From the NCBI GenBank assembly GCA_913058495.1, contig CAJXQC010000021.1:1-48324 (forward strand): a stretch of DNA of 48,324 bases. Direction: 5' to 3'. A program made the position numbers and the translations under genes. Each line of letters starts with the position of its first letter. The first letter of the stretch is position 1. The stretch comes from an uncultured Balneola sp. (lineage in GTDB: Bacteria; Bacteroidota; Rhodothermia; Balneolales; Balneolaceae). The notes beneath the pieces were generated by a model that was given only the letters and a program-made list of their open reading frames with translations, was not told where the DNA came from and did not search any database. Shown here in pieces: positions 262-14,894 of the stretch.

Positions 262-1380
262 TCAATCTAAAATACTTAAAGTCCTTAACAACGCATTCGA
301 TCTGAGGTCTAAATTGGTATTTCCGAAATTATAGTTTCTCAGAAGAATCACACCGTATTTACTGTCCTTTTCAAATTCGAAATGAGCCGAATACCCGGGA
401 GTTGAACCTCCGTGACCAACGGTATTAATTCCCTGATCTGAGTATAAATTAAATCCCAAGCTGTAGTTGGCTCTTAATCTTGTTGTCGGGGTTTGCGTTG
501 ATCGTAGTATTTCTAAACTCTCTTCATTTAACAGCTTGGATTCTCCCATGCAAGCTTTCATGAATTCAGATAGATCCGATACTGTGGAATAAAGACCGCC
601 ATTGGGAATTCGGTAACCTCGTCCGTTATGTTCATCTAAAGGTAGCTGAAAGTTTAACTCAGCAGTTGGTCCGCCCGCCTTGCCTTCAGCAAGTTTTTTG
701 GTTTTCTCTTCAGGAACAACAAAAAAGGTATTCGTCATGTTTAAAGGAGAAAGAATTTGTTCTTCAATCAGCTCTATATACGTTTTGTTTGTAGCTCTGG
801 ACATAGCTAATCCTAAAATGGCATATCCAATATTTGAGTATCTAAATCTCTCGCCCGGTTTTGATCTGAAAGAAGTTTGAGGAAGTGCATTGATCAGTTT
901 TTCTTCCCATTCCGAAACGGAACCAAAATTCGACTCCCTGTGTCTTGTTTCGCGATCTAGGCCTGATGTATGAGAAGCTAATTGCTTAAAAGTGATAGGA
1001 GAATATTTATCATAACCGATCAAAGATTTTATCTCAGGCAAATAGTTTTCAACAGGATCGTTCATGTTTAAGACACTATCCTGATGTAATTTTACCAATA
1101 GGAATCCCGTAAATGATTTTGTCACAGATCCTATTCGATAAAGTGTCTCAGAATCAGAAACTTCAGTTTTATCATGGTTCAGATAACCAAAAGTATCAGA
1201 AATAATAACACTATCAGATTTTATAACGGCTACCGAAATACTCCCATTTATGTTATCACTTTGGAGATCAGATTCTACTTGCATAACGAAATCCTCAATA
1301 ATGTTTTCGGGATTATTTTTCCGGGTTTCGCTACAACCAACCAGCTGGACAAGCAGTAGTACTAAAATTAGTTTTTTCAT
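262..1380 (-). CDS. Serine hydrolase lipoprotein, beta-lactamase class C / penicillin-binding family
   Basis: The protein has 372 residues and starts with a lipoprotein signal peptide with lipobox LVGC (Cys16), so it is probably anchored in an envelope membrane. The class C beta-lactamase-like fold shows its three motifs in order: SVTK at 85-88 (nucleophilic Ser85, Lys88), YSN at 181-183 and HGG at 323-325. Such enzymes include D-alanyl-D-alanine carboxypeptidases, esterases and peptidases, and the substrate cannot be told from sequence. It stands alone, convergent to the left-end repeat, with a repeat array upstream. All catalytic motifs are intact, so it is probably active. Confidence 0.9.
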   Translation of the reverse strand: MKKLILVLLLVQLVGCSETRKNNPENIIEDFVMQVESDLQSDNINGSISVAVIKSDSVIISDTFGYLNHDKTEVSDSETLYRIGSVTKSFTGFLLVKLHQDSVLNMNDPVENYLPEIKSLIGYDKYSPITFKQLASHTSGLDRETRHRESNFGSVSEWEEKLINALPQTSFRSKPGERFRYSNIGYAILGLAMSRATNKTYIELIEEQILSPLNMTNTFFVVPEEKTKKLAEGKAGGPTAELNFQLPLDEHNGRGYRIPNGGLYSTVSDLSEFMKACMGESKLLNEESLEILRSTQTPTTRLRANYSLGFNLYSDQGINTVGHGGSTPGYSAHFEFEKDSKYGVILLRNYNFGNTNLDLRSNALLRTLSILD

Positions 1381-1462
1381 TCCTCATTTTTAAGTTGCGC
1401 CTACAATAAGGAATAATCGTATGAGAAAGCAGAATTATAATCTTGTTTGTTGGAAGAGCTGG

Positions 1463-1537
1463 AAATTGAAGTCACAGACTTTCAAAACTATTGCTCTGAA
1501 GTCACCGCTCCGCTAAAGACTTCAGAGATCTTGGGGG
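1463..1537. repeat. Dispersed repeat A, copy 1
   Basis: This 75-bp unit is almost identical to 3967-4041. It contains two nested dyads built on GAAGTC/GACTTC. One is a short hairpin, GAAGTC-ACA-GACTTC. The other is a perfect 10-bp stem, CTCTGAAGTC at 1494-1503 with its complement at 1518-1527. There is no coding potential. It is followed directly by a partial repeat B. Confidence 0.8.
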
Positions 1538-2416: not shown

Positions 2417-3025
2417 TTATACATTTTTAAGTTTTTCGTCATACCAAACATCTTCGTATCCGTTGTTGTCAATTAAAAATCTATAGCCAACATCAAGACC
2501 TAAATATTTTATTATTTCAGGTCTTCTTTGAAGTAAATGTTCCGCACATATTGGTTGGAAAAAATCATCAGATTCCGAATATTCTCCTGTCCAAATGTAC
2601 CAACCTGTAGTGCCTTTTACCTTTGGATGCCTTAATCCGTAAATTGGGTCAGTATTTAAGTCAGAACCAATTTCGATTTTTAGCTTTTTGTTAATCGGAT
2701 TCCATTTAGACTCATTTTTTTCGCAAATCGCTTTTTGTCGGTCGATATGCGCGTTCCACAAATTGTAATCAGCTAATAAATCCTCGTCAGTTACCAATTG
2801 ATGTTTCCAAAGTCTTATGTTTTGTTTAGTAATCGGAAAATTGATTTCTGGACTGTCCCATTGATAAATGATATCAGATATTACATCATCGTCCCAATCA
2901 ATATTTTCTTCGGTTATAAGATTCCAAGCATAATTTTCAAAATCCCTTTCTTCAATTTCTCCATTCAGATATTGGTCGCATTTTGCGATTAAGTCCGAAC
3001 GTGATATTTTGATTTCTTGATTCAA
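2417..3025 (-). CDS. Imm33/DUF2185-like protein of unknown function
   Basis: This is a 202-residue soluble, acidic protein without signal peptide. The C-terminal third (from about residue 125) carries HLLQRRPEIIKYLGL, then DVGYRFLIDNNGYEDVWYD. It resembles the Imm33/DUF2185 domain found in immunity proteins of polymorphic toxin systems, in which a GxRFLI...YEDVW-type ending is typical. The N-terminal half, rich in Trp, Asp and Glu (NLITEENIDWDDDV), is known to me only from uncharacterised Bacteroidota proteins. The only plausible start is TTG at 3023-3025, because an in-frame TAA lies just upstream and no ATG follows early. No toxin gene is adjacent. The immunity role is therefore inference from family resemblance. 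Confidence 0.7.
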   Translation of the reverse strand: MNQEIKISRSDLIAKCDQYLNGEIEERDFENYAWNLITEENIDWDDDVISDIIYQWDSPEINFPITKQNIRLWKHQLVTDEDLLADYNLWNAHIDRQKAICEKNESKWNPINKKLKIEIGSDLNTDPIYGLRHPKVKGTTGWYIWTGEYSESDDFFQPICAEHLLQRRPEIIKYLGLDVGYRFLIDNNGYEDVWYDEKLKNV

Positions 3026-3044: not shown

Positions 3045-3113
3045 GTGTACAAAGGGCTGGTGTAAGGCATCGTTACCAAGCACAGGCAATGGGCTATACA
3101 CGTTGTTGTACAC
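3045..3113. repeat. attC-like imperfect palindrome between two accessory genes
   Basis: The 69-bp segment is bounded by the perfect inverted repeat GTGTACAA (3045-3052) and TTGTACAC (3106-3113). An inner pair, GTGTAAGGC (3060-3068) and GCTATACAC (3093-3101), is complementary at 7 of 9 positions. Two pairs of arms separated by short spacers and a central loop are the architecture of an integron cassette recombination site. The core does not match the classical GTTRRRY consensus, and no integrase gene is in the window. A transcription terminator or the end of a small mobile element are alternatives. Confidence 0.4.
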
Positions 3114-3118
3114 TGGCT

Positions 3119-3512
3119 TTATTCATATTTTTTTGATTTCAGAAATTCCGCGCGCTTATTCAATTCATCCGTCATCTTTATATCAGTCGGTTCTTCGTTT
3201 TTCTAAACTCCAAGCTTTATTTCCAATATCACTACTCTGAAGTACAATTGTGTCTCCAAGTTCAGTCCAACCAATTGCCCATCTATTCGCATCTCCAGCT
3301 CCAGTATTCAGTTCAGTCAGTTTTTCATTCTTCTTATTATATATATGAATGATAACATCAGCATAATTATCCGCATTTTTGTCAGTCCGATTTACAGTTG
3401 CATTAATTTTAAAATTTCCAGTCGAGGATTTAATTTTTTCGCTTTCATAATCGCTAAAAAAACAACTTGTCAAAGTCAAAGTCAATAATATTAAAGTCAG
3501 ATTGCGTTTCAT
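3119..3512 (-). pseudogene. Small secreted lipoprotein gene, probably frameshifted near its 3' end
   Basis: Translation from ATG 3510-3512 gives a lipoprotein with signal peptide MKRNLTLILLTLTLTSC (lipobox LTSC), then a short beta-rich domain ending ...IGNKAWSLEKRRTD and a stop at 3183-3185. If one base is removed from the T5 run at 3198-3202, the frame continues as NEEPTDIKMTDELNKRAEFL to a stop at 3119-3121. That extension has normal protein composition, so the intact gene probably ended there. A longer upstream open frame (to 3560) adds 16 residues before the obvious signal peptide and is unlikely to be used. The function is unknown. The gene is flanked by inverted 27/28-bp repeats (3087-3113 and 3523-3550). 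Confidence 0.65.
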
Positions 3513-3522
3513 TTGGTAGCTT

Positions 3523-3550
3523 GTGTACAACATAAGTATATGACGCATTG
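3523..3550. repeat. Inverted partner of the right half of the attC-like palindrome
   Basis: GTGTACAACA...GTATA...CATTG at 3523-3550 matches, on the opposite strand, the sequence read from 3113 down to 3087. The small lipoprotein gene is thus framed by inverted repeats just before its start and just after its (restored) stop. This fits a gene cassette or a very small mobile unit. Confidence 0.55.
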
Positions 3551-3562
3551 AGTTCATCATAT

Positions 3563-3795
3563 CCCAGTTTGATGTTTAAGTTTTACTCATCTATATGAAG
3601 GACTAAGATGAATAAAACCCAGTTATTATCAAAACATAACTATCATGTTATTCTACTATACAGTAATAAAAACGGGACTAAATAAAGATGGAAAGTTTTA
3701 GTCATCTTCCCTCAATAAAAACCAAGTCCCACTGGCAAGGAGAGCTCCAATGATTGGGGCGATGACATTACATCCAAAGGTGAGGAAAAGTACAG
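3563..3795. repeat. Direct duplicate of aquaporin 3' end and downstream region
   Basis: This segment aligns with about 4676-4895 in the same orientation. The shared stretch includes GAAGGACTAAGATGAATAAA, the GGGACTAAATAAAGATG segment and the last codons of the aquaporin gene. Similarity fades at about 3795, where repeat B begins. The duplicated block flanks the insert that carries repeats A and B and the gene at 4101-4625. Confidence 0.85.
3698..3795 (-). pseudogene. Remnant of the 3' end of the aquaporin gene
   Basis: Read on the minus strand, this stretch encodes VIAPIIGALLASGTWFLLRE followed by DD and a stop at 3698-3700. It is nearly identical to the C-terminus of the intact aquaporin at 4822-5463. 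Further upstream an LTxLWM-like segment is recognisable but is out of frame because of a small indel (ATG TAA in place of ATG TAT). Beyond about 3795 the homology is cut off by repeat B. Only about 30 codons remain, so it cannot encode a channel. Confidence 0.85.
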
Positions 3796-3797
3796 AA

Positions 3798-3962
3798 ACC
3801 GGTCATTCTGAGCAAACCTGCTAAGAATCTGCACAACTGGATTTTGATGAGATTTAAAAATCAGGGTCATCCTGAACTTGTTTCAGGATCTTTGTGGAGC
3901 TTAGTTTTCGGTAGTTTGACCAATATTCCCGCACAAGCGTGACGCTTGCGCTAGATTGGGGG
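3798..3962. repeat. Dispersed repeat B, copy 3
   Basis: It is nearly identical in length and sequence to 2240-2404 and begins exactly where the aquaporin remnant ends. It holds the same CAAGCGTGACGCTTG dyad. It is followed at once by repeat A copy 2, giving a B-A order. At 1463-1661 the order is A then B. Confidence 0.8.
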
Positions 3963-4067: not shown

Positions 4068-4093
4068 TTTAAAAGCCAAATCAACGATTTGGC
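4068..4093 (-). terminator. Probable intrinsic terminator of the gene at 4101-4625
   Basis: On the minus strand an 8-bp perfect stem, GCCAAATC with GATTTGGC, around a GTT loop is followed by TTTT. It lies 8 bases past the stop codon of the upstream gene. Confidence 0.65.
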
Positions 4094-4100
4094 GGGCTTG

Positions 4101-4625
4101 CTATGAAAACCAACTTTTCAATTTTGCAATGAACCCCTTATTGGGTATAGCCATTGTTGTGTTTTCGTTTTTTTTATACTCCCTTGTACTTTTTGATTCT
4201 GTTTTAGGGTTATGGGGTCTGCACCATGCATTCGCTTCGCTGTAATGTTCCTTTCCCAAATCATCCGTAATTACGAGTCTACAGTTGACTCTATGAGGTG
4301 CCATCTGTCCAAAATATGGTGACGGTTCATTTGGAAATCCCTTGATAATTAATAGTCCACTTTTAAAATGTTTCGAATTAATTCTCCTATTCAATATTTG
4401 TGTTTGGAGTCGTTTTGAAAATTCTTCAATTAGAAATCTAAATTCCTTGTTTTGAGGTTCGATTTTACAATCTTTTAGATTGATAGTAACTGTCATAGAA
4501 TTAGAAGAAATCATATGAGAATAAAGTTTTCCAATTCCCCAATAACCATAAACATCATTGTTTCGACTGACGAAAGAACTCACAAGTCCATCTGCAATAG
4601 TTTTAAATTCTTTTCTTCTCGCCAT
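4101..4625 (-). CDS. Uncharacterised soluble protein (accessory)
   Basis: From the ATG at 4623-4625 this is a 174-residue protein starting MARRKEFKTIADGLVSSFVS. An open frame reaches 4643 and would add six residues, but the MARRKEF start matches what I recall of related hypothetical proteins. There is no signal peptide or membrane segment. Visible segments are RNNDVYGYWGIGKLY near the N-terminus and a conserved-looking CRLVITDDLGKEHYSEANAW with WCRPHNP after it. I do not recognise the function. It sits between the two copies of the aquaporin-tail duplication and beside dispersed repeats, which suggests arrival with that rearrangement. Confidence 0.65.
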   Translation of the reverse strand: MARRKEFKTIADGLVSSFVSRNNDVYGYWGIGKLYSHMISSNSMTVTINLKDCKIEPQNKEFRFLIEEFSKRLQTQILNRRINSKHFKSGLLIIKGFPNEPSPYFGQMAPHRVNCRLVITDDLGKEHYSEANAWCRPHNPKTESKSTREYKKNENTTMAIPNKGFIAKLKSWFS

Positions 4626-4653
4626 TTTTATACAATGAAACACAACAACAGAG

Positions 4654-4676
4654 TAAAGTGAACTCTATTCACTTTA
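4654..4676. repeat. Perfect 9-bp inverted repeat upstream of the accessory gene
   Basis: TAAAGTGAA and TTCACTTTA flank a 5-base spacer. A further TTCACTTTAT occurs at about 4697. The site lies 29 bases upstream of the ATG of the gene at 4101-4625 and at the edge of the 4676-4895 duplication. It could be an operator or a transposition scar. Confidence 0.4.
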
Positions 4677-4821
4677 TCCCTATTTCATGTTTAAGTTTAA
4701 TTCACTTTATTCTTAAATAAGAAGGACTAAGATGAATAAAACCCAATTATTATCAAAATATGGCTATCATTTTATTCTAATATAAAATGAATAAAATGGG
4801 ACTAAATAAAGATGAAAGGTT

Positions 4822-5463
4822 TTAGTCTTCTTCTCTCAACAAAAACCAAGTTCCGCTGGCAAGAAGAGCACCAATAATCGGTGCAACGATATACATCCAC
4901 AGATGTGTAAGATTTCCGGAAACGAGAGCAGGAGCGATGGAACGTGCAGGATTCATAGAAGCACCTGTGATCGGTCCCGCGAACATGGCTTCAAGTAAAA
5001 CTACAAATCCCACAGCCAATCCGGTGAATTCAGTAACGGCTTTGTTTTGGCTTACAAACAAGATCACCACCATCAAAAAGTAGGTAAGAATGATTTCCAG
5101 AATAAAAGTTTGATGCCAGTCTCCGGCCGGAAGGGTAGAGCCCAATCCTTCGTGCTCCTGAAACAGAAAAGCTAAGATCAAGGAAGCAAAAAGAGCTCCG
5201 CCAACCTGAGCAATGATATATGGAGCGACCTGCTTTTCGTTAAAACGATCGGTAACTGCAAAAGCAATGGAAACAGCAGGATTGATATGCGCTCCGGAAA
5301 TTTTACCAAAGGCATAGATCATCGCCGTAACGATCAATCCAAAAGTAATGGCTACTCCAACATGCGTTACCGTTCCTCCGGTTACATCATTGATCACGAT
5401 GGCTCCGGTTCCGCAAAATACTAAAGCGAAAGTTCCAATGAATTCAGCAACATATTTTCTCAT
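4822..5463 (-). CDS. Aquaporin-family channel in arsenic operon (AqpS-like)
   Basis: The MIP-family membrane channel has 213 residues and six predicted helices. Both pore signatures are present: HINPAVS (NPA at 61-63) and SMNPARS (NPA at 171-173). It is the last gene of the arsR operon, and its ATG overlaps the stop of the ArsC-like gene by 4 bp, so the two are translationally coupled. In Sinorhizobium an aquaglyceroporin (AqpS) takes the place of an arsenite pump and lets arsenite formed by ArsC leave the cell. The same role is inferred here because no ArsB or Acr3 gene is present in the operon. Plain water or glycerol transport is the alternative. Its 3' end is duplicated at 3698-3795. Confidence 0.9.
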   Translation of the reverse strand: MRKYVAEFIGTFALVFCGTGAIVINDVTGGTVTHVGVAITFGLIVTAMIYAFGKISGAHINPAVSIAFAVTDRFNEKQVAPYIIAQVGGALFASLILAFLFQEHEGLGSTLPAGDWHQTFILEIILTYFLMVVILFVSQNKAVTEFTGLAVGFVVLLEAMFAGPITGASMNPARSIAPALVSGNLTHLWMYIVAPIIGALLASGTWFLLREED

Positions 5464-6122: not shown

Positions 6123-6590
6123 TTAACAGCAACCACTTCCCGGAGCACAAGAACCGGCGGTTTGTAGTTCAGATAGTTTTACTTTTGGCTTGGAAACAGG
6201 AATTCCACAACTATCCTTAGCCAGACAATCGGTAGCTTTGGTAGTCAGCAGGAAATTAGTTCCGTCAAAATCGAGCCCGTATTTGCCAATGGTTTCGCCC
6301 TGATATTCTACTTCAATATCCAGATCAGGAAGTCCTAGGGTCTTTTCAGATAGCTCAATGATGTGTAGCAGTTTTTCCGGATGGATACGGTGATCGTAAT
6401 CGTTGGCACTCCACAACTGGAAGTTGATCACTTCTTCATTTCTGAGTGTTCCACCGCAGTCGATGAAGTTCTTGGTAATCATTCCGACTTCAGTCACGTG
6501 AAAATGTCGGGGAACCAATTCACCATTCGGTAATTGGAAGGCGATAGATTCTAAATCGACAAGAGCACGTTTAATTTGAGATAATTTCAT
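6123..6590 (-). CDS. DUF6428 family protein of ars operon
   Basis: This is a 155-residue soluble protein. Visible segments are VPRHFHVTEVG near residue 30, a cysteine in NFIDCGGT, the segment LLHIIELSEKTLGLPDLDIEVEYQ region in the middle, and a cysteine-rich C-terminus ending CAPGSGCC. This matches the DUF6428 proteins that commonly sit between arsR and arsC-like genes in Bacteroidota. Its biochemical function is unknown. The terminal CC and the other cysteines could bind arsenite or metal, which is inference. It is transcribed with arsR (24-base gap) and the ArsC-like gene. Confidence 0.8.
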   Translation of the reverse strand: MKLSQIKRALVDLESIAFQLPNGELVPRHFHVTEVGMITKNFIDCGGTLRNEEVINFQLWSANDYDHRIHPEKLLHIIELSEKTLGLPDLDIEVEYQGETIGKYGLDFDGTNFLLTTKATDCLAKDSCGIPVSKPKVKLSELQTAGSCAPGSGCC

Positions 6591-7072: not shown

Positions 7073-7080
7073 TATCTTTG
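7073..7080 (+). promoter_or_regulatory. Probable -7 element of the purB promoter
   Basis: TATCTTTG is an exact match to the Bacteroidota sigma-A -7 consensus TAnnTTTG and lies 32 bases before the purB ATG. No clear TTG -33 box is present at the usual distance. Confidence 0.5.
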
Positions 7081-7112
7081 AATAATCTCAGAATTTCAAA
7101 CTAACTACTTTT

Positions 7113-8408
7113 ATGATATCCCGATATTCCCGCAAAGAAATGGAAGACATTTGGACGGAAGAAAATCAATTTCAGGCATGGTTGGAGGTTGAGCTTGCAG
7201 CATGTTGGGCATGGGCAAAGTTGGGAACCATCCCGATGGAAGATGTGGATAAACTGTATGAAAAAGCATCTTTCAAGTTAGAGAGAATAAAAGAAATTGA
7301 AGCTAAAACTCGTCATGATGTGGTGGCTTTTACCCGAGCGGTATCAGAAACGTTGGGCGAAGAGAAAAAATGGATCCATTACGGATTGACATCCACAGAT
7401 GTGGTAGATACAGCCTGGGGTGTTCGTTTAAAGCAAGCGAATAAGTTGATCAGAGAAGATCTGGAACGAATTATTTCAGTTTTAGGTGAAAAGGCGAAGG
7501 CTCATAAGTACACTGTGATGATGGGCAGAACGCACGGAATTCATGCGGAGCCAACGACTTTCGGGTTGAAGTGTGCATTGTGGTATACGGAAATGAAAAG
7601 AAATTTAGAGCGATTCGAAAAAGCAGCTGCTGATGTTGAATTCGGAAAACTTTCGGGCTCGGTAGGAACTTTTGCAAACATTCCTCCTGAAGTAGAACAG
7701 TACACCTGCGAGAAATTAGGATTAACTCCGGCTCCGATCTCAACCCAAACCTTACAACGAGACAGACACGCTTTTTACATATCTACTTTGGCTTTGATCG
7801 GTTCAACTATGGAAAAAATGGCGGTGGAAGTTCGTCATTTGCAACGCAGTGAAGTTCGTGAAGCAGAAGAAGCTTTCAGAAAAGGGCAGAAGGGATCTTC
7901 ATCTATGCCGCACAAAAGAAATCCTATTAGTTCAGAGAATATTACAGGTTGTGCACGTGTACTTCGTGGTTATATGGTAACTGCATTCGAAAATATTCCA
8001 TTATGGCACGAACGTGATATCTCACATTCATCTGCGGAGCGTATCATTCTTCCGGATGCAACTACATTACTGGATTACATGCTTTCACGTTTTTCTAATG
8101 TGATCGAGAATCTGGTCGTGTTCGAAGAGAATATGGAAGCTAACATCTGGAAAACACAGGGATTGGTATTTTCTCAGCGTATTCTGAACAAGTTGATTGA
8201 CAAAGGCATTAACAGGGAAGAAGCGTACGATGCCGTTCAGCCGTTGGCAATGGAATCATGGGAAAATCAAAAGCTGTTCCGTCCATTGATCGATAAAGAC
8301 AAATTCATTTCATCACAACTCAGCAAAGAAGAGATCGAAGATGCATTCGACCTGAAACATCACACCAGAAATGTAGATGTTATTTTTGAAAGGGTAGGGT
8401 TAGGTTAG
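7113..8408 (+). CDS. purB: Adenylosuccinate lyase
   Basis: The enzyme has 431 residues and the bacterial (short) PurB length. It cleaves SAICAR to AICAR and adenylosuccinate to AMP in purine synthesis. It belongs to the fumarase/aspartase superfamily, and all three conserved regions are visible: [12 protein letters not shown] at 89-100, [12 protein letters not shown] at 137-148 (catalytic His), and the signature loop [11 protein letters not shown] at 261-271. The ATG at 7113 follows a good -7 promoter. It is divergent from arsR. Its 3' end overlaps the convergent secreted-protein gene by 4 bp. Confidence 0.97.
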
Positions 8409-9079
8409 AATAAACTCAATTTAAATCCAGCACCAACAAAATCTGGTGTAATTATTGGATTAAAGTTTATTTTCATAACTGTTTGTTCTTCATCATAAGA
8501 GACTCCCAAGTCTTTATTATATGCTTTTACAGCACGCTCAACATATTTTGTAGCACCGTTACCGTTCACTCCAGCTACAATTATCCCGGTAAGAGCCACG
8601 CCGATACCTACAATTCCAATTGGTTTTATGGCGTATTTATCTCCACTTTGACCTGTTCTTGGATCAAAAGATTGTTCACCTGTTTTTTCAGCTCCCAAAG
8701 CAACAGCTAATACTACTCCACCTACTGAAATTACATATCCAGTAACCATATTTTTCCTTTTTTTTGCAAAGGTATTCATATGCGCTAAAGCATCAGGATT
8801 ATCTTTAACTATTTCTTTTAAATTGTCACCGAAATAGCTCACCTTTTGTTCGATTCCAAAGTTTCCAACTCTAAAAGTATAGGAAGGTTCACTTCCACCG
8901 GAAAAGCCTCCGCCCATTCCATTAAATCCGGGCGAATAATAGCCGGCTGTAGCGGATTTAGATTTTAGCTGAATAGGTTTTTTTTCGGTTTCTTGTTCCG
9001 CTTCCTGAGCATACAAAGTTGCATTGAAGACAAATAATGATAGGAATGATAGTACGGTAAGTAGTTTGATAATATTCAT
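8405..9079 (-). CDS. Secreted or membrane protein of unknown function
   Basis: The protein has 224 residues. It starts with a Sec signal peptide ending ...NATLYAQ, so it is exported. A Gly-rich segment ([19 protein letters not shown]) follows. Two hydrophobic stretches, at about residues 114-130 ([17 protein letters not shown]) and about 151-170 ([17 protein letters not shown]), are separated by a short polar loop and look like glycine-rich membrane segments. The C-terminus ends in [11 protein letters not shown], a beta-strand with final Phe, as in outer-membrane-associated proteins. I do not recognise a family. Confidence 0.7.
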
Positions 9080-9185
9080 GATATCAGTAGTTGAAAAAAT
9101 GATAGCGACAAATCTAAATAGATACTTTATAAATCCAAAAAAATAAAATCTGAAGATTTATAGAATCTATTTTTAGAGCTTAAAA

Positions 9186-10319
9186 CTAAAGACCGTTACT
9201 TAAAATATTCCAAATGAGTAAGGGGATTAAACATAATCGAATAATTTCTATTCCAAAAAGCCACTTACTTTTCGATTCAAACAAGATTCCAAGCATAGCA
9301 GTCGATATGACTATCCATGCTGAAAGTGAAATTTTTGATGCCATCGTAAAATCAGAAAAATTGAATAGGAAATAAGCGGTAATAGAAATAGCTATTAAAA
9401 ACTGAGCAAAGATATAGGTCTTCATCCATATAAAAGATACATCAGCATTGTACTTCTTAAAGTCTTCAGTTACATCTTTCGGATTTTGTACTCCTCCAAG
9501 ATAATCAGGTAACCACCCCGGCTGTTTGAACAACATGTTTTTGGTATCACTCCAGGATCTGGACTGCTTTGCATACTGATAAAGATCAATATAATGTGCG
9601 AAATTAGCATATACAGGATTCCAACTCCCCACCGGTTTGGTTATCCCGTAATTCGGTCGTTCTTCCTCTTCTTTGAAGGTTCCGAACATCTTATCCCAAA
9701 TAATAAAAACACCGGCGTAATTTTTGTCGATATATTTCGGGTCCCGACCATGATGTACTCTGTGATGCGACGGAGTGTTCATAATCTTTTCAAACCAGCC
9801 TATCTTGTTTATATGTTCGGTATGAATCCAGAATTGATAAAGTAGATTAAATCCTCCGATAAGAACAAACTGAATAGGATCAAAACCAAGTACAGCCAAT
9901 GGCAAATAAAAAGGAGTACTCCAGATAAAAGCAGTAGAACTTTGTCTTAATGCCACCGATAAATTAAAATCTTCACTTTGATGATGAACTACATGTCCTC
10001 CCCAAAAAAGACTTATTTCATGAGACATTCGGTGACTCCAGTAAAAGCAAAGGTCATAAAGAAAGAAAAGAATAATGAAAGAGATCCAGTGTTCAGGAAT
10101 TTTATATACTGCAAAGTATTGGTAGATAATGGAATAGATACCGATAGTAACAATTTTGGTAAAAATATTGCTCACCTGATTCAAAACACCTAGATTGATG
10201 TTCGTAACTGCGTCATTTAAACGATAGGTTTTTTTCTTAGTTATAGCTTCGTACATAAGTTCTAAACTCATAAGTCCGAAAAAGATAGGAATTGCAAATA
10301 TTACAGGATTAAAATTCAT
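9186..10319 (-). CDS. Sterol desaturase / fatty acid hydroxylase family membrane oxidase
   Basis: This integral membrane protein has 377 residues with several hydrophobic helices before and after a histidine-rich core. The di-iron ligand motifs are HRMSH (96-100), HVVHH (109-113), HTEH (166-169) and HHRVHH (185-190), in the order and spacing of the fatty acid hydroxylase superfamily. Such enzymes use O2 and electron donors to hydroxylate or desaturate lipids. Relatives include alkylglycerol monooxygenase and bacterial hydroxylases of sterol-like or carotenoid lipids. The C-terminal 100 residues add three hydrophobic stretches. The substrate is unknown. It is divergent from the histidine kinase gene, 47 bases away. 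Confidence 0.88.
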   Translation of the reverse strand: MNFNPVIFAIPIFFGLMSLELMYEAITKKKTYRLNDAVTNINLGVLNQVSNIFTKIVTIGIYSIIYQYFAVYKIPEHWISFIILFFLYDLCFYWSHRMSHEISLFWGGHVVHHQSEDFNLSVALRQSSTAFIWSTPFYLPLAVLGFDPIQFVLIGGFNLLYQFWIHTEHINKIGWFEKIMNTPSHHRVHHGRDPKYIDKNYAGVFIIWDKMFGTFKEEEERPNYGITKPVGSWNPVYANFAHYIDLYQYAKQSRSWSDTKNMLFKQPGWLPDYLGGVQNPKDVTEDFKKYNADVSFIWMKTYIFAQFLIAISITAYFLFNFSDFTMASKISLSAWIVISTAMLGILFESKSKWLFGIEIIRLCLIPLLIWNILSNGL

Positions 10320-11442: not shown

Positions 11443-12933
11443 TCACTTTTTTATGATCTGTTGGGCAAGTTCCCATCTTTTTACTTTACCCATAACAGTT
11501 TTGGGCAATTTGTCGACCACTACCAATTCTTTAGGGATTTTGAAATCAGAGAGCTCTGAAGAAAGCATTTTCTTCATTTCATCAATATCAGGAGTTTGAC
11601 CATTTAATAAAGTAATTACAGCAGTAACTTTTTGACCCCATTCTTCATCAGGAACTCCTATTACAACAGCTTCTTTTATCAAAGGTAAGCGTTGGATGGC
11701 TTCTTCAACCTCAAGCGGATTTACATTTTCTCCACCTGTAATGATCAGGTCTTCTCTTCTGGATTCTATAAAAAGTTGATCAAATCCGTTTATATGACCA
11801 TAATCCCCGGTTCTGAACCAATCATTTGTATCAAAAATATTCACATTTTCATCTGTTTCATAGTAGCCGTCAAATACCTGAGGCCCTTTAAGCCAGATCA
11901 TACCCGACTGATTTTTTCCTAATACTTTACCATTGTTATCTCTTATCTGTAATTGATTTGGAGGAAACGGTTTACCTACACTTTTAAGTGGAGTATACAT
12001 CCCTGAAGGTGTAGTCATTGCATTGGCAACAATTTGCGCGCATGTCTCGGTCATTCCATAACTGGAAACGATAGGAATTCCTCTTTCAACTGATCTTTTC
12101 AACAGTTGTTGAGTAGTTGGTCCTCCTCCCAATAAAATAGCTTTAAAATCTCTGTGGGTTTTAAATAACGGATTCTTTAAAAGTCTGGAAAGCATTGTTG
12201 GTACAAGCGATGCAGCCTGGAATCTGGGATTTTCGGAAAGAAATTCAGTTACCATTTCTTCATTGAAGCGCCCCATTCTGTAAATAGCTGAGCCGTATAG
12301 TAACGATCTGAATATTATGGAAATCCCACCTACATGATTTAATGGAAGACATAACAGCCAAAAATGATTGGGTTCAGGCTGAAAGTTTTTTGCTGAAGCT
12401 TTTGCAGCTGAGATCATTTGCCGTCTCTTTAACGGAACGATCTTGGATTTTCCGGTTGTACCGGAAGTCAGAAAATACCCAAATATAGAGCTGTCTTTGA
12501 TCTTGGATGGATTGGGTAATTCCAGTTCTCTGATATCGAAAGTGAATGCATTCAAAAAGAAGTTCTCATCCATGTGAACAACATCTTCACCGGAAAGTCT
12601 GTTTCGATTTGCTGTATCACAAAAGATCAGAGAAGGGCTTAATTCCTGAACAACATCCTCGAGCTCTTTTTGGGGAAGTTTAGGACTTAATGGAATGATA
12701 GGTATTCCCAGCTTCCATGCTGCGGCAATAGAAAATATCAATAAGTCAGAAGATTCAGATAAAAAAGCGATTGGCCATTTTAATGAATCTGATTTTTGTT
12801 TGATGGTATCAAGGAAAAACCCGGTAAACCTTTCCAGATCGCTATAGGTATACATTCCATGTTCGGAAGTCAGAAAGACCTTTTGAGGTTCTGATTTTCC
12901 AAATTCAAACATATGTAATCTAGACTTAAACAC
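11443..12933 (-). CDS. menE: o-Succinylbenzoate-CoA ligase
   Basis: This AMP-forming acyl-CoA synthetase activates o-succinylbenzoate in menaquinone synthesis. It has 496 residues, with the P-loop-like motif TSGTTGKSK at 156-164, SYGMTETCAQ in the middle, WFRTGDYG, and the C-terminal domain motif ending in KLPKTVMGKVKR with the catalytic lysine. Specificity is assigned from the neighbours: it follows menC by 3 bases in the order menA-menC-menE. The listed start is GTG (12931-12933). An ATG at 12910-12912 would give a protein starting MFEFGKSEPQ and is equally possible. Confidence 0.92.
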   Translation of the reverse strand: MFKSRLHMFEFGKSEPQKVFLTSEHGMYTYSDLERFTGFFLDTIKQKSDSLKWPIAFLSESSDLLIFSIAAAWKLGIPIIPLSPKLPQKELEDVVQELSPSLIFCDTANRNRLSGEDVVHMDENFFLNAFTFDIRELELPNPSKIKDSSIFGYFLTSGTTGKSKIVPLKRRQMISAAKASAKNFQPEPNHFWLLCLPLNHVGGISIIFRSLLYGSAIYRMGRFNEEMVTEFLSENPRFQAASLVPTMLSRLLKNPLFKTHRDFKAILLGGGPTTQQLLKRSVERGIPIVSSYGMTETCAQIVANAMTTPSGMYTPLKSVGKPFPPNQLQIRDNNGKVLGKNQSGMIWLKGPQVFDGYYETDENVNIFDTNDWFRTGDYGHINGFDQLFIESRREDLIITGGENVNPLEVEEAIQRLPLIKEAVVIGVPDEEWGQKVTAVITLLNGQTPDIDEMKKMLSSELSDFKIPKELVVVDKLPKTVMGKVKRWELAQQIIKK

Positions 12934-14010: not shown

Positions 14011-14894
14011 TATAAGATGATTCCGATAGAAAAAAGTAATCCAAAAATGGTCATGAACTTGGCAGTTTTTTCCAGCTGTTGATTCAGGTTCCTTTTTTCA
14101 GTTTCAGTCCAGATAGTTTTGGTATGTAACAAAGCAACAGGAAGAATCAGAAATGGTAGAAAGATCCAGACTTCGTAATCTAGCTGAAAATAAAAATGAG
14201 GAGGAATTGCGAAAGCAAGTATGAGCATAAATGTGTATTCCACTTTAAGCATTGTTTCGCCAAAGAGTACCCCAAGGGTTTTCTTTCCTGCTATTTTATC
14301 TTGGTCAATATCCCTCAGGTTGTTGACCACTAAAATATTAGTGCACAAAGCTCCCACTGCAAAAGAAGCCCAAAAAGTATCCATCGACCATACTAAAGCA
14401 TTAACATAATAAGTTGTCATTACTGCTACTATTCCGAAAAAGATAAAGACAAACAGATCACCAAGACCGTTATAACCAAGAGGAAAAGGACCTCCTGTAT
14501 AAAGTACTCCAAATAACAATGAAAATAGTCCTATGATCAAGACAACTGTCCCGCCGATCCAGACCAGATAAAGCCCGAAAATAAATGCCAAAGCCATACA
14601 AATGATTGTGGCGTTCAACATAGTTTTGGGAGAGATCAAACCTTTTGCAGTAGCTCGCTCAAAACCAATTCTTTCGTCAGTATCCGCTCCTTTAACAAAG
14701 TCATAATAATCATTGGCAAAGTTGGTCCCAATCTGAATTAAAAAAGCACAAAGAAGAGCAACGGTGGTCGCCATCCAATTAATAAGTTCATCCTGATAAG
14801 CAATGGTAGCACCAATAAGAACGGGAACAAAAGCAGCTGCAAGAGTTTTCGGACGCGCAGCTTCTACCCAAATTTTTAAATTAGATGTGTTCAA
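14010..14894 (-). CDS. menA: 1,4-Dihydroxy-2-naphthoate polyprenyltransferase
   Basis: This UbiA-family membrane prenyltransferase has 294 residues and eight or nine helices. It attaches the isoprenoid tail to DHNA, giving demethylmenaquinone. The Asp-rich prenyl-diphosphate site is NDYYDFVKGADTDER at about 61-75. A second one is VNNLRDIDQDKIAGKKT in the middle of the protein. The N-terminal WVEAARPKTLAAAFVPV is typical of MenA. The start is TTG at 14892-14894, because an in-frame TAA lies shortly upstream and no early ATG follows. It is the first gene of the menA-menC-menE operon. Confidence 0.94.
   Translation of the reverse strand: MNTSNLKIWVEAARPKTLAAAFVPVLIGATIAYQDELINWMATTVALLCAFLIQIGTNFANDYYDFVKGADTDERIGFERATAKGLISPKTMLNATIICMALAFIFGLYLVWIGGTVVLIIGLFSLLFGVLYTGGPFPLGYNGLGDLFVFIFFGIVAVMTTYYVNALVWSMDTFWASFAVGALCTNILVVNNLRDIDQDKIAGKKTLGVLFGETMLKVEYTFMLILAFAIPPHFYFQLDYEVWIFLPFLILPVALLHTKTIWTETEKRNLNQQLEKTAKFMTIFGLLFSIGIIL

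Follow-up and report, generated by a model that had tools for sequence, protein, structure and literature searches.

Gene cassettes at attI-like sites in a Balneola genome probably belong to an integron-like platform whose recombinase lacks the additional domain of IntI

Introduction

Integron integrases are separated from other tyrosine recombinases by an additional domain (passages of PMC7784347 and PMC9668308), and this domain is said to be necessary for integron recombination (Messier and Roy 2001, as cited in the same passages). At classical attC sites, strand choice comes mainly from the first extrahelical base, according to the relevant part of Bouvier et al. (2009, PMC2727003). How the additional (I2) domain could have been selected before attC sites existed, or attC sites before the domain, is put as a chicken-and-egg question in a passage of Escudero et al. 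(2016, PMC4792948). In the open-licence PMC papers searched, no description of integrons without the IntI domain was found.

The locus described here lies in a window (the whole stretch of DNA analysed, 48,324 nucleotides) that represents contig C21 of an uncultured Balneola sp., the genome of which comprises 3.40 Mb in 47 contigs. The system resembles classical integrons in that a recombinase gene diverges from an attI site, a cassette array follows and is subject to turnover, and the attC sites possess R'', L'', L' and R' boxes with the AAC/GTT triplet, the R' box being rebuilt from the cassette start. It differs from them in that the recombinase is without the additional domain and scores under the integron-model cut-off, the attC stems have conserved A.C mismatches instead of fixed extrahelical bases, and R' often reads GTTGT rather than GTTRRRY. 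XerA resolves chromosome dimers; the present recombinase passes the XerA-type model NF040815, named 'site-specific tyrosine recombinase/integron integrase', but its gene heads attC arrays. A further likeness is to CTXphi-type integration, in which XerCD uses a folded single strand and, according to a passage of PMC4792948, an I2-less recombinase acts on a dsDNA-mimicking hairpin without extrahelical bases; CTXphi, however, borrows the host XerCD, whereas here a dedicated recombinase with its own attI serves arrays of many cassettes.

Results

A lipoprotein cassette and its eroded palindrome

The gene at 3183-3512, which likely encodes a lipoprotein judging by its predicted start (MKRNLTLILLTLTLTSC), gave no match in Pfam and NCBIfam searches. 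Together with its attC it forms cassette B (3054-3531, minus strand), whose start GTTGTACAC is identical to its own R'' at 9/9 positions; this R'' also agrees at 6/6 positions with the start of the next cassette. The 69-bp palindrome that the sequence-only reading had pointed out (3045-3113, minus strand) is probably of the attC type, and its end boxes, R'' at 3113-3105 and R' at 3053-3045, pair at 8 positions. The inverted repeats at 3087-3113 and 3523-3550, thought to bound the gene, are indeed present (22/27 aligned bases the same, one gap, the outer ten bases GTGTACAACA an exact match), but 3523-3550 is not the end of a cassette; it consists of an attI-like core and the cassette start.

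The attC covariance search that had been proposed gave matches in the source genome and in 7/8 genus genomes; the window site itself, with 42.1 bits (E 4.6e-6 genome-wide) under model R1, in which the palindrome was included, reached only 18.4 bits (E 0.04, the window as search space) under model R2, which was built without it, and was absent at E<=1 from the genome-wide list of that model. As single-stranded DNA the palindrome folded no more stably than shuffled sequence (z -0.38 and -0.82 for the two strands), and it reads TTT at the paired columns where GTT was kept in 37 of 38 attCs. A BLAST search of about 70 nt of the palindrome against the source genome returned only the self-match; family-wide, matches at E<=1 were found in 32/92 genomes, and among six such loci inspected, only L012 had the same surroundings, the others lying within or adjoining coding sequence. 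Alone, the palindrome exceeds chance only marginally. What makes an eroded site of the attC type the best reading is its context, namely the 9/9 agreement of R'' with its own start and the start of the adjacent Imm33-like cassette, which is conserved behind other neighbours.

Two cassette blocks behind duplicated attI-like elements

Two attI-like sites were detected by profile on the minus strand: site A at 4638-4714 (core GTT 4646-4644; 62.6 bits) and site B at 3523-3592 (core GTT 3531-3529; 64.1 bits), the latter running into the start of cassette B. Aligned copies are alike through GTTG and divergent past it. The element of about 80 bp had 33 matches across 7 of the 8 genus genomes searched and none in G007. 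In the window, the lipoprotein, Imm33-like and orphan genes are arranged in two blocks, each behind such an element after an aquaporin 3' end; the intact aquaporin gene lies at 4825-5463, and the copy of its 3' end (residues 190-213; 3701-3772, minus strand) shows 79% identity to it. Aquaporin 3' end and attI-like element are duplicated together as 187-nt repeats (3582-3768 and 4706-4892), and both blocks are closed by a 165-nt repeat (2240-2404 and 3798-3962, 96% identical). The combination of aquaporin end and attI-like element is duplicated in G002 as well (L061), with other cassettes between.

The Imm33-like gene (2417-3025, minus strand; PF24719, 134.5 bits) belongs to a cassette starting with TTTGTACACC at 3053, for which an R'' beginning with GGTGTAC would be expected. 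The remnant reported just past its stop was recovered as a shortened R'', GGTGTACC (2410-2403, minus strand), at the point where the 165-nt repeat begins; the start of this repeat cuts the R''. The neighbours of the cassette vary between the lipoprotein cassette (window), a nuclease-like gene (PF14281; G005) and an attI-like site directly (G001), and in all three settings homology starts at the GTTGT core or no more than about 5 nt away from it, which shows the mobility of the cassette unit.

Cassette A (4156-4646, minus strand) starts with GTTGTGTTT and matches its own R'' (4164-4156) at 9/9 positions. Its orphan gene (ORF 4101-4643) had no Pfam, NCBIfam or PADLOC match, and its weak, degenerate attC (4077-4163, minus strand) scored 12.7 bits (E 0.8) with the model lacking the window palindrome and 18.9 bits (E 0.35) with R1. 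Between 4101 and 4164, the frame of the orphan gene crosses R'' into this attC, so that its final codons are attC sequence.

On the opposite strand, immediately behind the attI-like elements, lie two fossil starts of a recombinase without the IntI domain. The one at 4732-4782 (plus strand), MNKTQLLSKYGYHFILI followed by a stop, scored 11.2 bits with an N-terminal profile and came first among the 1570 17-mers that begin with ATG in the window, compared with a best background score of 4.4 bits among 6326 17-mers; the full-length recombinase model gave only 4.6 bits. The other, at 3608-3658 (plus strand; MNKTQLLSKHNYHVILL), ranked 2 of 1570 with 4.2 bits, which is below the best background score and by score alone within chance, and had 3.5 bits with the full-length model. 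Among 32 attI-like copies examined with that model, an intact recombinase adjoins two, remnants of at least 18 bits were found at four more (L099, L101, L105 and L110), and most had no remnant.

An intact platform and array turnover

The sequence-only reading, which saw no integrase in the window, had called for a genome-wide integrase search. This found a true IntI on contig C30 (435 bits; cut-off 265) and, on contig C19 beside an attI-like site and cassettes, a recombinase that is related to IntI but lacks its characteristic domain. On C30 (L010:12148-14304), IntI and two cassettes lie at the contig end, and the linked attC has extrahelical bases, in contrast to the system of the window.

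In locus L259 (coordinates are those of C19 minus 20500), the gene of the 280-aa C19 recombinase (686-1528, minus strand) diverges from the attI-like site, whose core is at 1615. Four attCs follow (6397-6459, 7073-7260, 9065-9260 and 12604-12672), all in the direction of the array; they were the sole genome-wide matches of R2 at E<=1, and in 4/4 cassettes R'' equals the own cassette start at 6/6 positions. The cassettes contain a type III restriction-modification pair, a 141-aa orphan, a GmrSD-type endonuclease (PADLOC HEC-05) and a pair of TPP-enzyme and glutamate-synthase-like genes. Further palindromes beside unrelated genes, for which the sequence-only reading had proposed to look, were found with attC models. 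The same site is present in G005, with 98% identity along the stretch of recombinase and attI; homology stops at L259:1618, in the attI core, and returns at 14217, and the seven attC matches of the G005 array delimit cassettes of which none is common to C19 apart from one 42-bp match. Compared in this way, the sequences show that the array at this single site has been turned over as a whole.

A recombinase lineage outside the IntI clade

The C19 recombinase has the domains PF00589 and PF13495. It scored 214.5 bits with the integron model TIGR02249, below the cut-off of 265, and model positions 181-239 had no match; these cover an insertion that is present in the genome's own IntI and absent from 14 aligned relatives. 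It passes NF040815 (237.3; cut-off 220) and stays under the curated cut-offs for XerC and XerD. R136, K161, H225, R228, H251 and Y260, which we take to be residues of the catalytic type, are invariant across 19 aligned relatives. By sequence, the nearest solved structures were XerA 5hxy, followed by 4a8e and IntI4 2a3v; an AlphaFold model (pLDDT 82.8, pTM 0.62), poor at 253-269 around the catalytic Tyr260, was used for fold class only.

When 47 sequences were placed in a tree, 15 IntI formed one clade (100/100), and the 19 attI-linked recombinases grouped together in 98% of the bootstrap trees (support 93/67); these groups do not include three other recombinases of the source genome, two of which join L123 weakly. 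The closest named relative seen, Balneola sp. HCUG1436-7, has a C19-type recombinase at 99.6-100% identity. At E<=1e-40, the recombinase was found in 14/89 family genomes; at E<=1e-60, the recombinase profile matched 50/148 sampled phylum genomes (recombinase matches, not array counts), and 33 of these 50 were without IntI at the same threshold. Among the best 80 of 143 relatives, the named ones belong to Balneolota, Calditrichota, Ignavibacteria and Marinimicrobia, and a longer type belongs chiefly to Flavobacteriia. Recombinases of this Flavobacterium type (L151-L207) are extended at the N terminus without a change of frame; their arrays lie on either side of the gene, and no attI-like site was seen directly upstream at the loci inspected. 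Five distant recombinases were located on viral contigs.

Cassette boundaries, array polarity and attI covariation

The relationship between R'' and cassette start was determined for 56 consecutive site pairs, five attC matches without clear boxes being skipped. R'' agreed with its own cassette start at 6/6 positions in 33 pairs and at 5/6 or more in 39, compared with 2 and 7 pairs for the next cassette start (Wilcoxon P 5e-6). The own start was matched at fewer than 5/6 positions in 17 pairs; the count contains the duplicate loci L129/L258 and L134/L262 and an L151 pair that spans the recombinase, and all three fail. In several other failing pairs the first unit is a mini cassette without an ORF (GTTGAAGAA, GTTGGAGAT), and the failure at position 7073 of L259 was resolved when R2 later detected a further attC. 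Intervening mini cassettes or missed attCs account for several, though not demonstrably all, of the failing pairs. The mini cassette, a hairpin around GAATTCGCTCCGCTC followed by its own attC, recurs after attI and attC sites (L258; also L129, L132, L135, L097, L099 and L108).

Arrays of attCs beside relatives of the recombinase were found in Balneolota, Marinimicrobia, Ignavibacteria and Flavobacteriia. With R1 at E<=0.01, the 25 named loci of the first type gave 20 attC matches in 12 loci, six of these matches belonging to the R1 training set; all 20 lay upstream on the minus strand, that is, directed away from the recombinase. The 54 Flavobacterium-type loci gave 34 matches in 19 loci, 33 of them directed away from the recombinase (14 upstream, 19 downstream). 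The attC model was to have had these loci among its negative controls, but since attC arrays are present in them too, they were counted as evidence instead; the IntI loci are the remaining negative controls. The Tenacibaculum locus L198 alone had nine matches at E<=0.02. A near-identical attC is shared by a Balneola locus (L059:2868-3002, G005) and a Marinimicrobia bacterium (L146:7246-7379), which suggests possible cassette exchange across phyla.

Across 20 loci, recombinase distances were correlated with attI distances (Mantel r 0.92, P 0.0002) and not with cassette-side distances (r 0.04, P 0.24); this set omits truncated loci as well as L130, whose start is uncertain, and L140, which has GTTT as its core. 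Mean column agreement was 0.89 before the attI core and 0.53 behind it for seven Marinimicrobia loci, and 0.73 and 0.51, respectively, for ten Balneolota loci.

attC stems with conserved A.C mismatches

In 38 distinct model-aligned attCs, 12 of 15 base pairs are altered on both sides somewhere, and 127 double-change cells were counted, compared with 44.8 in shuffled data (sd 5.4) and at most 36 in slid structures; the alignment behind this count was fitted to the structure. Mismatches in the arms were strongly biased, with 84 A.C/C.A and 13 G.T/T.G in the model-oriented sites, and each of the 38 attCs had at least one A.C mismatch; in a looser palindrome scan the excess was smaller (86 versus 46, P 0.0006). 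The bottom strand was the more stable one in 32/38 attCs and the top strand in 5/38, the bottom strand closing better because A.C mismatches on the top strand are G.T wobbles on the bottom strand. When 18 sites, the window site excluded, were aligned with MAFFT, one pair of facing columns had A in 18/18 and C in 17/18 and a second had A in 17/17 and C in 17/17, many neighbouring pairs being variable. This trait is weaker in the Flavobacterium type (A 22/37, C 26/38). An A behind AAC and a C before GTT were present in 38/38 attCs. The R' bases after GTT come from the next cassette and are variable; some fit GTTRRRY (GTTGGGC, GTTAGGC) and many read GTTGT. Stems were free of gaps in 14/38 attCs, and by reading the remaining ones had no fixed extra base.

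IntI palindromes from the same phylum, 3/17 of which resemble a terminator rather than an attC, have extra bases on one side of the stem at two or three positions; none of the 17 was free of gaps, compared with 23/60 palindromes at loci of the domain-less recombinase (P 0.0018). Their bottom strand folds better in 14/17 (P 0.06), so a stability bias alone is not special to the present sites. In sequence scans, the pattern TGTACAAC-N-GTTGTACA had zero matches, exact-box scans found few sites, and a relaxed scan was noisy (108 matches, 52 in shuffled sequence); an Rfam search gave nothing relevant.

Discussion

In our view, the lipoprotein and Imm33-like genes and the orphan gene at 4101-4643 are very probably cassettes that occupy the attI-like sites of an integron-like platform, one run by an I2-less recombinase lineage. 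Under this explanation, decay has left only the first codons of the window's own recombinase gene, and the intact platform is the one on C19. Several observations count against it: the weak score and poor folding of the window's own attC, the 17 of 56 pairs in which R'' departs from its own start, the small number of attI-like copies with an intact recombinase (2 of 32), the stated need of integrons for the additional domain, and G001, which has attI-like sites and attCs and no recombinase match at E<=1e-40. The likeness of gene plus palindrome to an integron cassette, proposed from the letters alone, was strengthened by the 9/9 match of R'' with its own start and by the attI-like site upstream; the integron reading as a whole held for the cassettes and attCs and failed for a classical IntI integron. 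None of the three outcomes named beforehand as refuting it was obtained, with a reservation for the weak score of the window's own site. Judged from its sequences, the system is integron-like by architecture and footprint, yet is set outside the IntI family because two classical tests, that of the recombinase domain and that of extrahelical bases, go against it.

GTT boundaries, agreement of R'' with the own start, array polarity, covariation of attI and recombinase, and array turnover can be read directly from the sequences. In the mechanism that we propose, cassettes would move as circles, the recombinase would bind double-stranded attI and folded attC, strand exchange at GTT would let cassettes enter in one orientation, and R' would be rebuilt from the cassette's own start. 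The catalyst would be the I2-less recombinase and the substrate a single bottom strand, on which conserved G.T wobbles may do the job of extrahelical bases. We lean, by a narrow measure, towards the wider proposal that a second, I2-less kind of integron is widespread among Bacteroidota and neighbouring phyla, in which conserved G.T wobbles, and not extrahelical bases, mark the bottom strand.

The most serious competitor, which we regard as rather improbable, is that the domain-less recombinase moves the cassettes as double-stranded DNA only; the palindrome would then be no more than a pair of ordinary core sites, and the strand asymmetry would have another cause. A double-strand route is possible in theory for integrons, as stated in a passage of Escudero et al. 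(2016, PMC4792948), and the enzyme does lack the domain that reads extrahelical bases; compensatory changes nevertheless preserve the hairpin (127 versus 44.8 shuffled, in an alignment fitted to the structure), and the excess of A.C/C.A over G.T/T.G (84 versus 13) goes with a bottom strand that closes better in 32/38 sites. That homologous recombination and duplication spread palindromes and flanks, with no site-specific capture at all, seems to us highly unlikely: the duplicated flanks of the window (the 187-nt and 165-nt repeats and the copied aquaporin end) mean that such processes did act there, but homology stops at GTT cores, R'' is specific to its own cassette, and arrays are polar relative to the recombinase.

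It is also improbable, though somewhat less so, that the true IntI on C30 acts in trans and moves these units as it would any ordinary integron cassettes, with the domain-less recombinase a bystander at the head of the array. IntI was found in the source genome and in most sampled genus genomes, 17/148 phylum genomes have both enzymes, and attC architecture is common to both, including the A after AAC and C before GTT in 10/17 IntI palindromes. Against this, attI covaries with the domain-less recombinase, and 16/20 array-bearing genomes had no IntI match at E<=1e-60, several of these being MAGs in which some absences may be gaps. No IntI-type ORF was present in 80 recombinase loci (the control locus L010 was recognised), and R1 detected no attC at E<=0.01 in 21 IntI loci, with one weak match (L234, E 0.035). 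G007, which has IntI and no domain-less recombinase, had neither an attI-like match nor an R1 match.

Cassette arrays beside I2-less recombinases, their attCs having no fixed set of extrahelical bases and the arrays sometimes sharing a genome with a true integron, make the question of the origin of I2 and attC testable, and searches that begin from IntI would miss such arrays. If the proposal of a second, I2-less integron kind is true, the recombinase domain and the site feature go together, and the system may be a living relic of a pre-I2 state or an independently invented form of cassette capture.
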